Below the pieces are notes generated by a model. That model made no database searches and was not told the origin of the DNA. It was given only the letters and a program-made list of their open reading frames with translations. 49,339 nt of DNA, taken from NCBI GenBank assembly GCA_012515075.1, contig JAAYZC010000052.1:1-49339 (forward strand), read 5' to 3'. The translations under genes and the position numbers were made by a program. Of the stretch, positions 26,867 through 34,894 are shown in pieces. Source of the stretch: Thermoplasmatales archaeon. Lineage in GTDB: Archaea > Thermoplasmatota > Thermoplasmata > Methanomassiliicoccales > Methanomethylophilaceae. Numbering within the stretch: the first letter of the stretch is position 1; each line of letters opens with the position of its first letter.

Positions 26867-27872
26867 TTATGTTGAGGGCCTTCCTGCAGTTGCTGCACCT
26901 GGTCCCGTCCAGTCCCACAATGTCCACCATGTATCCGAGCCTCTTTATGACGACGTTACCGCATTCGGGGCAGTACGTGTCGGCCGCACCCTGGTTCAGC
27001 ACGTTGCCCACGTACACATAGCTGAGGCCCGCTTCGAAGGCCAGGTCCTGGGCCCGCATGAGGGTCTCCACGGGGGTCCACTGGATGTCGGTGAGCTCGT
27101 TGTCCGGATGGAACCTCGTGAAGTGGACGGGGACCTCCCCGGAAAGCTCGTCCCTCACCCATTCGGAGAAGCGGGTCAGCTCATCCTCCGAGTCGTTGTA
27201 CCCCGGTATAACGAGGTAGGTGAGTTCCAGATGCACCTTCTCCTCGTGAACGGTCTTCGCCGAGGACAGGACGTCCTCCAGGTGCGCCCCGCAGACCTTC
27301 ATGTAGAATCCGTCGGTGAATCCTTTGACATCTATGTTCATGGCCGAGGACACCTTGCAGAGGTCCCTGAGGGGTCCCTCCTCCGCTAGCCCGTTGGTGA
27401 CCAGGACGCAGGTAAGGTCCGGATCGCATTCCGCCACGTCCATGATGTACTCGTACCATATCATCGGCTCGTTGTAGGTGAAAGCTATGGCGTCCATCCT
27501 CTCGCTGCGGCAGAGGCCCACCAGCTCCTCGGGGGACTCGTAAGTCGTGCGTTTCTTCCCCGACGGGGACATCGATATGGCGTAGTTCTGGCAGTGTTTG
27601 CAGAACATGTTGCATCCGATCCCGCCCACGGAGAATATGCGGCTCCTGGGACGGAAGTTGTACAGGGGCTTCTTCTCTATGGGGTCCACGCATATGGAGG
27701 ACACCTTGCCGTAGGAGTAGGCCACGAGGATGTCCGCGTCCCCCCTCCTCGATCCGCATCTGCCGTACCCGTCCACGGGTATCCTGCAACGGTGGGGGCA
27801 GAGCCCGCAGGAGTAGGAATCCTCCTCCCTGGTGTAATATGCAGCCTCCTTCCTGGGATTAATACTCGCCAT
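26859..27872 (-). CDS. Radical SAM protein, AmmeMemoRadiSam/PflA-like family
   Basis: 337 residues. Radical SAM cluster motif in GCNMFCKHCQ (CxxxCxxC, about residues 87-94), preceded by a Cys-rich N-terminus (CGLCPHRCRI...GRCGSR) and followed by a C-terminal zinc-ribbon-like set CPECG and CSNCRK. This is the COG1180 group known as AmmeMemoRadiSam, common in archaea; its partner proteins AmmeMemo1/2 are not seen here. The reaction is unknown. It overlaps the end of thiL by 14 nt and is probably co-transcribed with it. Confidence 0.88.
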   Translation of the reverse strand: MASINPRKEAAYYTREEDSYSCGLCPHRCRIPVDGYGRCGSRRGDADILVAYSYGKVSSICVDPIEKKPLYNFRPRSRIFSVGGIGCNMFCKHCQNYAISMSPSGKKRTTYESPEELVGLCRSERMDAIAFTYNEPMIWYEYIMDVAECDPDLTCVLVTNGLAEEGPLRDLCKVSSAMNIDVKGFTDGFYMKVCGAHLEDVLSSAKTVHEEKVHLELTYLVIPGYNDSEDELTRFSEWVRDELSGEVPVHFTRFHPDNELTDIQWTPVETLMRAQDLAFEAGLSYVYVGNVLNQGAADTYCPECGNVVIKRLGYMVDIVGLDGTRCSNCRKALNIII

Positions 27873-31255: not shown

Positions 31256-32052
31256 GGACCGAGTTCGGCGGCCGTTGCGTAGAGTACGACCGGCCCAGGA
31301 TCATGGGCATACTCAACGTGACCCCCGATTCGTTCTCCGACGGAGGTGTTCTCATGGACGTACGCTCAGCCGTACGTCGTGCGTTCGAGATAGAGGACCA
31401 GGGGGCCGACGTCCTCGATATCGGCGGCGAGTCCACACGTCCGGGCAGCTCGCCCGTGGGTGCGGCGGAGGAGATGCGCAGGATTATCCCGTTGCTCAGG
31501 GAGGTGGCCCCGTCCATAGGGATACCGGTGTCGGTCGACACCATGAAGACCGAAGTGGCGGCGGCCTGTCTGGAAGCGGGCGCTCACATCATAAACGACG
31601 TTAACGGCCTCCGTGCGGAGGGCATGGCGGAGCTGGCCGCTTCCTCCGGGGCCCCCGTGGTCATAGTGCACGTTCACGGGAACCCGGGGACGACCCACTC
31701 GTCCTGCATGGAGGGCGACGCCGTCGGAACCGTGTCGGCGTTCCTGAAGGAGAGGGCCGAGGCCGCCATGGACGCCGGCATACGCAGGGACCGCATAATA
31801 CTGGATCCCGGCATAGGTTTCGGCAAGACCCCGGATCAGAACATCGAGATACTGCAGAGCTCCTCTCTGTTCTCACATGGATTCCCGGTCCTTTCGGGCT
31901 CCTCTAGGAAAAGGTTCCTCGGGACGCTCTTCCCGGGTATGGACAGGGAGTTGGCCAGCGTCAGGGCGGCCCGTATGGCGGTGGATTCGGGAGCGGCCAT
32001 GGTCCGCGTCCACGATGTAGCGCTCACGCGCCGTGTTTTACGAACCATGTGA
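31252..32052 (+). CDS. folP: Dihydropteroate synthase-like protein
   Basis: 266-residue TIM barrel. MGILNVTPDSFSDGG, DIGGESTRPGSSP, NDVNGLR, DPGIGFGKT and GSSRKRFLG are the classical DHPS motifs, so the pterin site and phosphate-binding SRK are complete. It would join a pterin diphosphate to an aminobenzoate-type substrate for folate or methanopterin-like cofactors. The start overlaps the stop of the LarA fusion gene (ATGA, 31252-31255), so translation is coupled. The last 29 nt overlap the convergent zinc-ribbon gene. Confidence 0.92.
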   Translation: MRTEFGGRCVEYDRPRIMGILNVTPDSFSDGGVLMDVRSAVRRAFEIEDQGADVLDIGGESTRPGSSPVGAAEEMRRIIPLLREVAPSIGIPVSVDTMKTEVAAACLEAGAHIINDVNGLRAEGMAELAASSGAPVVIVHVHGNPGTTHSSCMEGDAVGTVSAFLKERAEAAMDAGIRRDRIILDPGIGFGKTPDQNIEILQSSSLFSHGFPVLSGSSRKRFLGTLFPGMDRELASVRAARMAVDSGAAMVRVHDVALTRRVLRTM

Positions 32053-32239
32053 GCAGGGCGATGGCGATGACCGAGACGACGGCGAACGCCGCGAACAGAT
32101 AGTCCCCGCGGGATTCCCTGGCCCGCTCCCTCCTGTAGTCGTCCCTGCACTCCTCCGAGCAGAACTCGTCTCCCGCAGGGAGCGGATCGTCGCAGTTCCT
32201 GCAGTGGGAATGTTCGGGGAGCCTAGCTGTCGCAGCCAT
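32024..32239 (-). CDS. DUF2116 zinc-ribbon membrane protein
   Basis: 71 residues. N-terminal zinc site HCRNCDDPLPAGDEFCSEEC (residues 12-31; two CxxC-type pairs), charged linker RRERARESR, then one C-terminal membrane helix (AAFAVVSVIAIALLTWFV). DUF2116-type archaeal proteins have no known function. It is divergent from the ubiquitin-like operon, 100 nt away. The fold is a ribbon rather than a RING, so it is not called an E3. Confidence 0.8.
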   Translation of the reverse strand: MAATARLPEHSHCRNCDDPLPAGDEFCSEECRDDYRRERARESRGDYLFAAFAVVSVIAIALLTWFVKHGA

Positions 32240-32339: not shown

Positions 32340-33116
32340 ATGAGGATCCGCCCTTCCGACAGGGACCGTTTCGACAGGATGAGGAGGGTGGAATGGATGG
32401 ATATGGAGTCAGTGCAGCTCAGGAGATGCCTGATGGTCGGAGCCGGCGCCCTGGGCAACGAGGTCCTGAAGTGCCTGGTGCTATCCGGGTTCCGGGACAT
32501 AACAGTCGTGGACATGGATGAAATCGTTCCGTCCAACCTAAGCAGATGCCTTTTCTTCAGAGAGGAGGATGTAGGAAGGGCCCCAAAGGCGCAGGTGCTC
32601 GCGGAACGGGCCTCATCCCTCGATTCCGCTGTGACCATAAGGCCGGTGGTATCCAGGATACAGGATGCAGAGGATTGGGACTTCGACATCGTGCTCGGGT
32701 GTCTGGACAACATATCCGCCAGACTGCACGTGAACTCCCACGCCAGATATCACGGCGCACCCTATGTGGACGGTGCCACGGACGGCCTGTCGGGAAAAGT
32801 CCACACGGTGCTCCGGGACGGACCCTGCCTGCAGTGCGCCATGAACCGCAGCCACATGAAGGTTCTGGAGAGGAGGTACACCTGCACCGGCAGGGAGGCC
32901 ACTTTGTACTCCCGCCCTCTGGCCGCGGAGATAACCACCACTTCGGTGGTGGCGGCCATGGAGGTCAGGGAGGCCCTCAAGATCGCTTCCGGCAGGGAGG
33001 ACCTCTGCGTAAGAGAGGTGATGTACTACGACGGGATGTCCGGCTCCATCGAGAAGGTGGAGCTGGATGTAGACCCGGGATGTCCCAACCACGGGGACCG
33101 GGAGGCAATAGCATGA
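32340..33116 (+). CDS. E1-like ubiquitin-activating enzyme (ThiF/MoeB/UBA superfamily)
   Basis: 258 residues, one adenylation domain. ATP loop VGAGALGNEV (33-42); D58/D60 in VVDMDEIV; SNLSR (65-69); K83; CLDNISARLHVN (121-132); GATDGLSGKV (145-154). CxxC at C163/C166 pairs with C248/H251 (CPNH) as a likely zinc site, the last ligand changed from the usual Cys. C182 in RRYTCTGRE sits where UBA3/SAE2-type E1s place the thioester cysteine (FPxCT). Expected to adenylate the tail of the neighbouring Ubl and pass it to the E2. The longer frame to 32271 crosses the promoter and is rejected. The stop overlaps the Ubl start (ATGA). Confidence 0.9.
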   Translation: MRIRPSDRDRFDRMRRVEWMDMESVQLRRCLMVGAGALGNEVLKCLVLSGFRDITVVDMDEIVPSNLSRCLFFREEDVGRAPKAQVLAERASSLDSAVTIRPVVSRIQDAEDWDFDIVLGCLDNISARLHVNSHARYHGAPYVDGATDGLSGKVHTVLRDGPCLQCAMNRSHMKVLERRYTCTGREATLYSRPLAAEITTTSVVAAMEVREALKIASGREDLCVREVMYYDGMSGSIEKVELDVDPGCPNHGDREAIA

Positions 33117-33367
33117 CGGTCAGGATAACTGTGAAGAACATAGCGGCGAACGCAACCATGAGGATGGAGGTGGAGCCCCAGGAGACGATGGCAGACGTGA
33201 TCCAATGCGCCGCAGAGTATTGGAGCAAGGATTCGGGAGCGTACATCCTCAAGAAGGGGAAGACGATGCTCCGCGGAGACAGGACCGCAGAGGAGACGGG
33301 CCTGGTGAACGATGACGTGCTGGAACTGATACCCGATCCCGAAGGCGGGGGCAATGGGACTGCCTAA
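33113..33367 (+). CDS. Ubiquitin-like beta-grasp modifier protein with internal diglycine
   Basis: 84 residues. N-terminal strand pair VRITVKNIAANATMRMEV, a helix TMADVIQCAAEYW, then YILKKGKTMLRGDRTAEETG and DDVLELIPDPEGGG: the layout of ubiquitin and of YukD-like and bacterial operon Ubls. The tail is GGGNGTA: three glycines (78-80) followed by four residues, so trimming would be needed to expose a terminal glycine, as for eukaryotic and Caldiarchaeum pro-ubiquitin. The last 14 nt overlap the E2 gene. It is placed between E1 and E2, which supports the role. Confidence 0.85.
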   Translation: MTVRITVKNIAANATMRMEVEPQETMADVIQCAAEYWSKDSGAYILKKGKTMLRGDRTAEETGLVNDDVLELIPDPEGGGNGTA

Positions 33368-33833
33368 GCAGGTCCTCGTGAGGAGGATCAACAACGAGCT
33401 CGGGCAGTGCTCCGAATATCTGGAAGCGGACCTTCCGGCGATACCCGAGGACGCCCGCTTCCCGCTGGAGATCCGCATAGACCTGGTCAACCATCCGGCC
33501 TATGTGTCCGAGGATCGCATGTCGAGGAAGCACGCCTGCAGGCTGATAATATCCGAGGAGTACCCTTTCAGGAAGCCCGAGGCTAGATGGATCACACCGA
33601 TATTCCATCCCAACATAATGATGCCCGAGGACGGAGGGTATGTCTGCCTGAGGACCCTTGACGACTGGTCTTTCGGATCCAGCATGCTGGCCTTCGTCAA
33701 GAGCCTTGAGCACCTCATAGGTGACCCCCGTCCCAAGAACCCCTTCGGAACCGAATCCTGCCTGGCGGCATCCAGGTTCTTCTCCGACAACCCCCTGGGG
33801 ATGGAGATGTCCGTAAGCTACGGGGGGCGCTGA
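33354..33833 (+). CDS. E2-like ubiquitin-conjugating enzyme (UBC fold)
   Basis: 159 residues, the normal size of a single UBC domain. Strand EIRIDLVNHPAY, then YPFRKPEARWITPIFHPNI with the HPN motif (85-87), catalytic C98 in GGYVCLRTLDDW, the tryptophan W105, and SMLAFVKSLEHLIGDP followed by NPF...AASRFF, all in the E2 order. It would take the Ubl from the E1 and attach it to target lysines. The start overlaps the Ubl gene, using GAAGGCGGGG there as ribosome site; the stop overlaps the JAMM start as TGATG. The protein ends in YGGR. Confidence 0.9.
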   Translation: MGLPKQVLVRRINNELGQCSEYLEADLPAIPEDARFPLEIRIDLVNHPAYVSEDRMSRKHACRLIISEEYPFRKPEARWITPIFHPNIMMPEDGGYVCLRTLDDWSFGSSMLAFVKSLEHLIGDPRPKNPFGTESCLAASRFFSDNPLGMEMSVSYGGR

Positions 33834-34342
33834 TGCCCAAGGTGATATCCGCGGCCGGAGAACCTCCGCGGGCGAGGAGGAGAACGGTCGCGGCGGCATC
33901 GCTGTTCGTTTCGGAGGACGCCCTGAACGATATGATATACCACGCGGAAGCCGGCCTGATTGATAAGAAGGAGGTCATGGGGCTGATGATTGGGATGTTC
34001 TACAATGACGGCTCCGGGACCTACGCGGAGGTCACCGGCACGGCCACATCCGATCTCATAGCAAGCAGCACCAGCGTCAGGTTCGACGGCGGGTCCCTGG
34101 AGCCCCTCTTCGATTCCCTGGACGAGATGGAGGAAAACCAATCGGTGGTTGGATGGTATCATTCGCATCCGGGGTTCGGCTGTTTCATGTCCGAGACGGA
34201 TGTGAGGACGCAGGATGGCATATTCGGCGGAGGGACGGGATTCGCGATAGTGATAGATCCCGTAAGAATGGAGATAAAGGCCTTCGACAGCACGCCCCGC
34301 GCGCCGAAGGAGGTCCAGATGATCGTCATGGGCGGGGATTGA
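33833..34342 (+). CDS. JAMM/MPN+ metalloprotease, Rpn11-like deubiquitinase
   Basis: 169 residues. Complete JAMM site: E47 in KKEVMGLMIG, H110/H112 in VVGWYHSHPGFGC, S120, D123 in FMSETDVRTQ. The stretch VVGWYHSHPGFGC followed by (W/F)xS..D..TQ is the pattern of eukaryotic Rpn11 and Csn5, closer than the generic bacterial JAB. A zinc isopeptidase is expected, able to mature the Ubl tail and remove it from targets. Translated through a TGATG overlap with the E2. It ends with no gap before the convergent hexuloisomerase gene. Confidence 0.92.
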   Translation: MPKVISAAGEPPRARRRTVAAASLFVSEDALNDMIYHAEAGLIDKKEVMGLMIGMFYNDGSGTYAEVTGTATSDLIASSTSVRFDGGSLEPLFDSLDEMEENQSVVGWYHSHPGFGCFMSETDVRTQDGIFGGGTGFAIVIDPVRMEIKAFDSTPRAPKEVQMIVMGGD

Positions 34343-34894
34343 TCAGACCCATATGGCATGCCTGTTGCGCATGTCGATCTCGGTAACGCCCAGCCTCTCC
34401 ATCATTGACGGTACCATCGCGTCGAAGAACAGCATGACCGCGTCCTCGAAGACGGTGCCCAGGGGGGCCAGCTCGTGTCTCTCCTCATCATCCGCTATCT
34501 TAAGGGTTATCACGGTGTCCGAAGCCTTGGCGAGCTTGCTGCCGCCCCTCGAGGTTATCGTGACCACATGGGAGCCGAGGCGACGGGCGATCTGCGCCGT
34601 CTGAGTGCCCGAGACGGTCTCTCCCCTGTTGGAGATTATGATGGTGAGGTCGTCCCTGCCTATTATGGGGGTGGTCATGTCACCGACGAAATGCACATCC
34701 AACCCCATCTGGACCAGACGTACCGAGAACAGCTGACCCACCAGTCCGGATCTCCCCGAACCGTACACGAAGATCTTCTTCTTGCTCAGGATGAGGGATA
34801 TGAGCCTCTCTTCAGACTCGGAATCTATGGACCCTATCGCATCGCGGGTACGCTGCAGAAGGAAGTCCACGGATCCTCTGTCCAAATCATTCAC
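34343..34894 (-). CDS. hxlB: 6-phospho-3-hexuloisomerase (SIS domain)
   Basis: 183 residues with one sugar isomerase fold: FVYGSGRSGLVGQLFSVRL, HFVGDMTTPIIG, ISNRGET and the C-terminal GTVFEDAVMLFFDA are typical of PHI. In archaea PHI works with hexulose-phosphate synthase in the reversed ribulose monophosphate route to supply pentoses. The synthase is not in this window. It overlaps the upstream TIM-barrel gene by 8 nt. Confidence 0.9.
   Translation of the reverse strand: MNDLDRGSVDFLLQRTRDAIGSIDSESEERLISLILSKKKIFVYGSGRSGLVGQLFSVRLVQMGLDVHFVGDMTTPIIGRDDLTIIISNRGETVSGTQTAQIARRLGSHVVTITSRGGSKLAKASDTVITLKIADDEERHELAPLGTVFEDAVMLFFDAMVPSMMERLGVTEIDMRNRHAIWV

Follow-up and report, generated by a model that had tools for sequence, protein, structure and literature searches.

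A vertically inherited operon for a probable ubiquitin-type conjugation pathway in Methanomassiliicoccales and its candidate RING E3 partner

Most of what has been characterised of archaeal ubiquitin systems comes from C. subterraneum, which is uncultured and was studied through synthetic genes; such systems have also been predicted in Asgard archaea. The window analysed here (the whole stretch of DNA, 49,339 nucleotides in length) comes from a genome of the order Methanomassiliicoccales, with relatives in the Methanomassiliicoccaceae, Candidatus Methanoplasma and the Methanomethylophilaceae. It carries an operon for an E1-like enzyme, a ubiquitin-like modifier (Ubl), an E2-like enzyme and a JAMM protease. 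The locus poses the question of whether these genes specify a ubiquitin-type conjugation cascade, whether such a cascade is a housekeeping or an antiviral one, and whether it acts with an E3 ligase. We put at about 0.78 the probability that they belong to a vertically inherited housekeeping E1-E2-RING-JAMM cascade of the ubiquitin type, present in Methanomassiliicoccales and other Thermoplasmata.

The operon and its proteins

The four genes lie on the plus strand at window positions 32340-34342 and are linked by short overlaps (Table 1). The sequence-only reading had described this arrangement, as well as the key catalytic residues of E1, E2 and JAMM, and the junctions and every residue named were found in the sequence. 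A chance origin is rejected on the basis of Pfam scores (ThiF 156, UQ_con 43 and JAB 53 bits) and the recurrence of the same gene order in about 40 loci. Neither an effector gene nor a RING gene is present within the operon. Genes for ribosomal proteins L18e, L13 and S9, identified by reading of frames, are close to it, and on the opposite strand, just 5′ of the E1 gene, is a gene for a DUF2116 protein, a small zinc protein whose C terminus is hydrophobic.

Table 1. Features of the conjugation locus, in window coordinates
Feature	Position	Strand	Basis
DUF2116 small zinc protein	32024-32239	-	
E1-like activating enzyme, 258 aa	32340-33116	+	Pfam ThiF 155.6 bits
Codon of putative E1 catalytic Cys, C182	32883-32885	+	assigned from sequence
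E1/Ubl junction, ATGA	33113-33116	+	read in sequence
Ubl modifier precursor, 84 aa	33113-33367	+	AlphaFold2 and Foldseek
Codons of conserved G78-G79, predicted mature C terminus (PDPEGG)	33344-33349	+	operon Ubl conservation; loss in relics
Five-residue extension GNGTA after Gly-Gly, predicted to be removed by JAMM	33350-33364	+	comparison of Ubl tails
E2-like conjugating enzyme, 159 aa	33354-33833	+	UQ_con, AlphaFold2, Foldseek
Ubl/E2 junction, 14-nt overlap	33354-33367	+	read in sequence
E2 H85-P86-N87	33606-33614	+	
E2 catalytic C98	33645-33647	+	
E2/JAMM junction, TGATG	33831-33835	+	read in sequence
Rpn11-like JAMM metalloprotease, 169 aa	33833-34342	+	JAB 53 bits, PDB match
JAMM motif	33971-34201	+	
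SIS-domain gene, convergent conserved neighbour, locus marker	34343-34894	-	adjoins operon in order-level loci

The E1 consists of one ThiF domain, the match to which ends at residue 249, and the C-terminal ubiquitin-fold domain is absent. In eukaryotic E1s that domain recruits the E2, and therefore E2 docking must differ here. The ATP-binding loop GAGALG (G34 to G39), D123, R128 and C182 are invariant over six families, with N124 the exception. In three loci (L037, L042 and L043) the DNxxxR motif has become DSxxxR. Four residues form a CxxC...CxxH set of zinc ligands (C163/C166/C248/H251). Relatives in the PDB are UBA7/UBA1/UBA3 and MoeB/ThiF, and NCBIfam matches to ThiF and UbaA fall below the cut-off. 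The MoeB/UbaA-like size, the zinc site and these matches would suit an enzyme of the SAMP/Urm1 kind, which activates its Ubl mainly for sulfur carrying or for E2-independent tagging, the E2 being accessory; Haloferax SAMPs are indeed conjugated without an E2 (PMC11354881). The pattern of gene loss described below makes this reading rather unlikely for the operon.

The tail of the window Ubl reads PDPEGG-GNGTA. It had been described as a Gly-Gly-Gly tail, and the glycines are present, but the conserved pair is G78-G79 and is followed by five residues instead of ending the protein; the window Ubl is thus a precursor. Of 116 non-redundant operon Ubls, 115 carry the motif PDP[EQ]GG, and the remaining one lies on a frameshifted contig; between 0 and about 13 residues come after the motif, and these differ in length and sequence between Ubls. 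The window Ubl has no Lys or Arg close to G79, R56 being the nearest. Ubiquitin-like Pfam matches are below threshold, and since a phmmer match to polyubiquitin (1e-5) is inflated by summed repeats, the fold assignment was made from a structure model. AlphaFold2 models of the Ubl and the E2 were built from alignments of 62 and 58 relatives, respectively. The Ubl model is a beta-grasp (pLDDT 85) for which Foldseek returns SUMO, NEDD8, ubiquitin and C. subterraneum ubiquitin at TM 0.75-0.80, the last at 0.80. The E2 model has a UBC fold (pLDDT 89; Foldseek E 1.7e-5, TM about 0.65) that lacks the C-terminal helix alpha-4. Both folds are those expected from the sequence-only reading, which thereby passes the structural test that it had set for itself. 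The E2 residues H85, P86, N87, C98 and W105 are invariant in operon loci.

The JAMM residues E47, H110, H112, S120 and D123 are invariant save in a few decayed relatives. The best PDB match is yeast RPN11 (E 5e-18), and others are C. subterraneum Rpn11 (6fjv, 2e-12) and CSN5 (4e-10); these values score similarity and not phylogeny. Together with the intact catalytic residues, they bear out the earlier label Rpn11-like. The score against the NCBIfam desampylase model is 41.8, with a cut-off of 130.

JAMM and Ubl tail appear to vary together. The HxH motif is lost from the JAMM in most of the g6 species that keep the E2 and in G066, a Methanoplasma, and in all seven loci with an HxH-less JAMM, which represent two lineages, the Ubl gene stops directly after the Gly-Gly codons. 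In loci with an active JAMM, 66 Ubls have an extension and 41 have none (Fisher p 0.002, uncorrected for relatedness and with two lineages involved). The count of seven true losses sets aside L029 (an X at the site), L208 (contig end) and L179 (frameshift); L063, L118, L119, L151 and L174 were judged active by eye. In the termite-gut Methanoplasma loci examined, Ubls have one residue past Gly-Gly, except only that of G066 (L132). Since loss of HxH is always found with a Ubl that ends at Gly-Gly, the data fit the JAMM as the putative Ubl maturation protease. CsRpn11 has been shown to mature pro-ubiquitin (PMC6043591).

In one genus a JAMM-derived protein persists without its metal site (L036, L037, L042, L043, L044 and L202). 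A tblastn search missed the JAMM at three loci belonging to one genus, where it survives as a degenerate remnant. In the genus of L036 and L202 the system seems to be in decay or shifting to another function.

Distribution, inheritance and loss

A survey across Methanomassiliicoccales, proposed with the sequence-only reading, finds the E2 in 97 of 147 species genomes and in 28 of 30 genera, with E1 and E2 co-occurring across genomes. The gene order E1-Ubl-E2-JAMM followed by the convergent SIS gene is fixed in about 40 loci from six families. This recurrence, with the folds, motifs and residues given above, supports the earlier claim of a complete Ubl-E1-E2-JAMM set. About twelve further Thermoplasmata families have the E2, most of those examined with the same four genes, some reordered. 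The phrase "in a euryarchaeon" undersold a system that is found order-wide and in further Thermoplasmata families. Along the gene trees the GTDB family label changes 13 times for E1, 12 for E2 and 9 for JAMM (minimum 11, 11 and 9; shuffled 22-25). Because synteny is fixed and the trees follow GTDB families, inheritance of the operon is vertical, as for a housekeeping part of the core genome. Contamination or a mobile origin is rejected in view of the order-wide synteny.

The sequence-only reading had left the pathway as possibly housekeeping or antiviral. Bacterial operons of the Bil, Bub or CBASS type also combine E1, E2, Ubl and JAB genes, and the PADLOC E1-E2 and BilD models weakly match the E1; PADLOC also gives a weak JAB match. 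However, PADLOC makes no confident assignment and gives no match for the Ubl or the E2, no E2 relative was found in the viral contigs scanned, the operon has no effector gene, and a patchy, horizontally moved defence-island context is not seen; vertical descent, fixed synteny and ribosomal-protein neighbours point to housekeeping. A defence module is rejected on these grounds and an antiviral role akin to those operons is very unlikely, so that the housekeeping half of the earlier suggestion is the one that survives.

Loss of the system can be followed at its old site. The convergent SIS gene, a constant neighbour that usually remains after loss of the operon and is probably outside the conjugation system, is still there in 12 of the 14 genomes searched in which no E2 was detected. 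The genus g9 (about 30 species) lacks E1 and E2, as do parts of other genera; with a Ubl profile, most g9 genomes yield a relic Ubl. Gly-Gly is intact in none of the 25 relic Ubls from genomes without E2 whose C terminus was read; their tails include PDPDSG, PDPFRD, PDPVLS, PDPNML, PDPEGFFK, PDPEAYF and LVHER. Flanks read in G072, G075, G077, G010 and G038 place the relic at the old site beside the SIS gene. In g6, E1 relics (G033 and G038) lack the GxGxxG loop or the catalytic Cys. Species from which the system has gone act as natural knockouts and show which of its parts belong together.

Gly-Gly is kept only alongside E1 and E2, as covalent attachment predicts. One could argue that the Ubl is mainly a non-covalent scaffold and conjugation vestigial, given that relics without Gly-Gly persist in most genomes of one genus and the fold thus has some use without conjugation. 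Against this, Gly-Gly is invariant wherever E1 and E2 are kept and gone from every relic read, which leaves the scaffold reading with very little probability. The same losses bear on the SAMP/Urm1-like reading: E1, Gly-Gly, E2 and the RING gene described below are kept and lost together, the E2 catalytic residues are invariant, and the complete relatives searched have other ThiF-family genes able to serve sulfur chemistry. A sulfur-carrier-only role is rejected on this evidence.

Variant loci were also observed. The relic, non-conjugating Ubls (L262, L263, L264, L266 and L308-L327) come from a genus that has lost E1, E2 and RING, most genomes of which have kept such a protein. In Thermoplasmata family f11 (L106:4011-4727 and L120:3589-4305) a Ubl is fused to an E2 whose catalytic Cys region is altered (GGDIHCEYL, GGVVKMEYI), and the surrounding 8 kb contains neither an E1 nor a JAMM nor a separate Ubl; the fusion looks like a retired, UEV-like E2. 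In families f29 and f32 (L116:2811-3878 and L117:2714-3847) a longer protein, which in L116 is a double zinc-ribbon plus DUF835 protein, has a Gly-Gly Ubl as its C-terminal domain, and a JAMM frame of 890 or 637 aa is followed by E1 in a different gene order. More eukaryote-like E2s are found in family f20 (L102, L103 and L104, in G160 and G170, genomes of 3.2 and 5.2 Mb), where one E1-E2-JAMM cluster has a RING-like frame adjoining and another locus a Ubl-like stretch fused to the E2. In Methanomassiliicoccales archaeon RumEn M2 (L179, L207) Ubl and E2 are apparently frameshifted, probably through sequencing error.

A RING protein beside the proteasome alpha gene

The pathway had been called E3-less. 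A zf-RING_2 screen of 20 genomes gave sub-threshold matches that adjoin the proteasome alpha gene, psmA, which was located in a separate search. In the window genome the RING gene is on another contig than the operon (C35, about 27199-27723, minus strand; L221:1264-1788) and is followed by the gene for RNase P protein Pop5, assigned by reading of the frame, and then by psmA. The 175-aa product has an N-terminal hydrophobic helix (Kyte-Doolittle maximum 2.4), a membrane helix being usual across relatives, and a CxxC...CxC...H..C...CPxC RING-like domain plus two zinc-ribbon-like motifs. The eight zinc ligands (C61 C64 C76 C78 H83 C86 C93 C96) are all invariant and, from sequence, in RING order. 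The domain scores 24.0 bits with zf-RING_2, under the cut-off of 27.3, and its profile matches RINGs of E3 ligases in the PDB at 5e-6 (RNF165, ARK2C, ZNRF3, Arkadia, gp78/AMFR and XIAP).

All 12 operon-bearing genomes inspected have the RING gene near psmA; the six inspected that lack the operon have kept Pop5-psmA and have no RING gene there. Order-wide, the profile finds it in 91 of 97 genomes with the E2 and 2 of 50 without (Fisher 2e-29); for genomes at least 90% complete the counts are 50/50 and 1/26. The six E2-bearing genomes without RING are 68-87% complete, and the two with RING and no E2 either lack the SIS gene or have it at the end of a contig, so that an assembly gap probably accounts for the missing operon. 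On the SIS-gene tree E2 presence changes six times, three of these on well-supported branches, and RING never changes in the opposite sense. A tree-corrected sign test of the association is not significant (p 0.25), the data being phylogenetically clumped with so few events that such a test cannot reach significance. Several E2-bearing families outside the order escape the RING profile, and in a class-wide search long zinc-ribbon proteins match at 1e-9 to 1e-17, matches looking specific only below about 1e-18. Because of these cross-matches the RING link is claimed only for the order and families f8, f16, f19 and f24.

Simple bacterial cascades can do without a separate E3. It is conceivable, and somewhat doubtful, that the cascade is real and E3-less, the RING being an unrelated proteasome-locus protein lost in the same lineages by coincidence; its gene lies outside the operon, its domain score is below the Pfam cut-off, and well-supported independent losses are few. 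Speaking for a functional link instead are the co-inheritance in near-complete genomes, the invariant ligands, top PDB matches that are E3 ligases, and, in the distant Thermoplasmata genome G170, a RING-like reading frame directly after E1-E2-JAMM. The psmA-linked RING protein is thus a likely E3 ligase, as judged from its sequence and inheritance, and the term E3-less is probably wrong.

Proposed pathway and comparison with known systems

For the E1-E2-RING-JAMM cascade favoured here, the chemistry can be sketched by analogy with the enzyme families. The JAMM would trim the Ubl precursor after G79, in the window removing GNGTA; the E1 would adenylate G79 with ATP and hold the Ubl as a thioester on C182; and the Ubl would pass to C98 of the E2. 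The RING protein, as the presumed E3, would guide E2~Ubl towards its targets, probably at the membrane, and the JAMM may also remove the tag. A likely fate of tagged proteins is the 20S proteasome, to which only two features point: the resemblance of the JAMM to Rpn11 and the siting of the RING gene. The 20S proteasome is present in 18 of 18 genomes tested, including those without the system, and therefore the proteasome cannot depend on the Ubl tag. More tentatively, the membrane-anchored RING at the psmA locus might send membrane-proximal proteins to the 20S proteasome within a complete E1-E2-RING E3-Rpn11 pathway; if true, membrane-protein quality control as known from eukaryotes would have a minimal counterpart in archaea other than Asgard archaea and Caldiarchaeum. 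In this archaeal group, the tagging of proteins in the eukaryotic manner may be commonplace and of long standing. The results extend the archaeal range known for E2, RING and Rpn11, which bears on whether the ubiquitin toolkit predates the Asgard-eukaryote line. As the order has cultured and human-gut members, conjugates could be sought in living cells.

One component has been noticed before. In the accessible text of Fort et al. (2015), a JAMM of M. luminyensis, WP_019177758, is named a PSMD14/Rpn11 orthologue, the only such archaeal match in that survey besides Caldiarchaeum; E1/E2 are mentioned there only for Caldiarchaeum, and the protein is treated as a lone proteasome-lid relative, without an E1-Ubl-E2 operon or RING (PMC4453063). 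This protein, from a cultured species of the order, very probably corresponds to the operon JAMM. Fuchs et al. (2018) describe prokaryotic "JAMM-3" proteins nearer to Rpn11/CSN5, some of them encoded in operons alongside homologues of Ub, E1 and E2 (PMC6043591); the operon JAMM family probably falls within this group, for which the main text names no organisms. Among Euryarchaeota, Grau-Bove et al. (2014) report one single-cell genome with UCH and RING genes (PMC4327156). In a literature search that was incomplete and did not extend to supplements, we found no published account of the operon or its RING partner in Methanomassiliicoccales; an earlier mention is possible, for example in "Cluster III" of PMC5654768.

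With the SAMP/UbaA/HvJAMM1 system of Haloferax volcanii the operon shares a Ubl with C-terminal Gly-Gly, a MoeB-like E1 and a JAMM, the desampylase in Haloferax. Haloferax has neither E2 nor RING, whereas an E2 is encoded in the operon, and the operon JAMM is closer to Rpn11 than to HvJAMM1, as its desampylase score indicates. The combination of E1, E2, Ubl and JAB follows the logic of the bacterial Bil/Bub/CBASS-type operons, but those are antiphage systems, and the present operon is chromosomal and vertical, its Ubl and E2 unmatched in PADLOC. A close parallel is the system of C. subterraneum (Ub, E1l, E2l, srfp RING E3 and CsRpn11), in which the E1/E2/RING cascade and Rpn11 have been reconstituted (PMC5654768; PMC6043591). 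Both have a Ub-fold modifier made as a precursor with residues past Gly-Gly, an E1, an E2 with a catalytic Cys, an Rpn11-like JAMM and a RING protein in the genome. They differ in that the operon E1 has 258 aa and no C-terminal ubiquitin-like domain, the JAMM gene is here part of the operon and shares its strand, the RING gene lies apart from it, beside psmA, its product often having a membrane helix, and the host belongs to the Thermoplasmatota.
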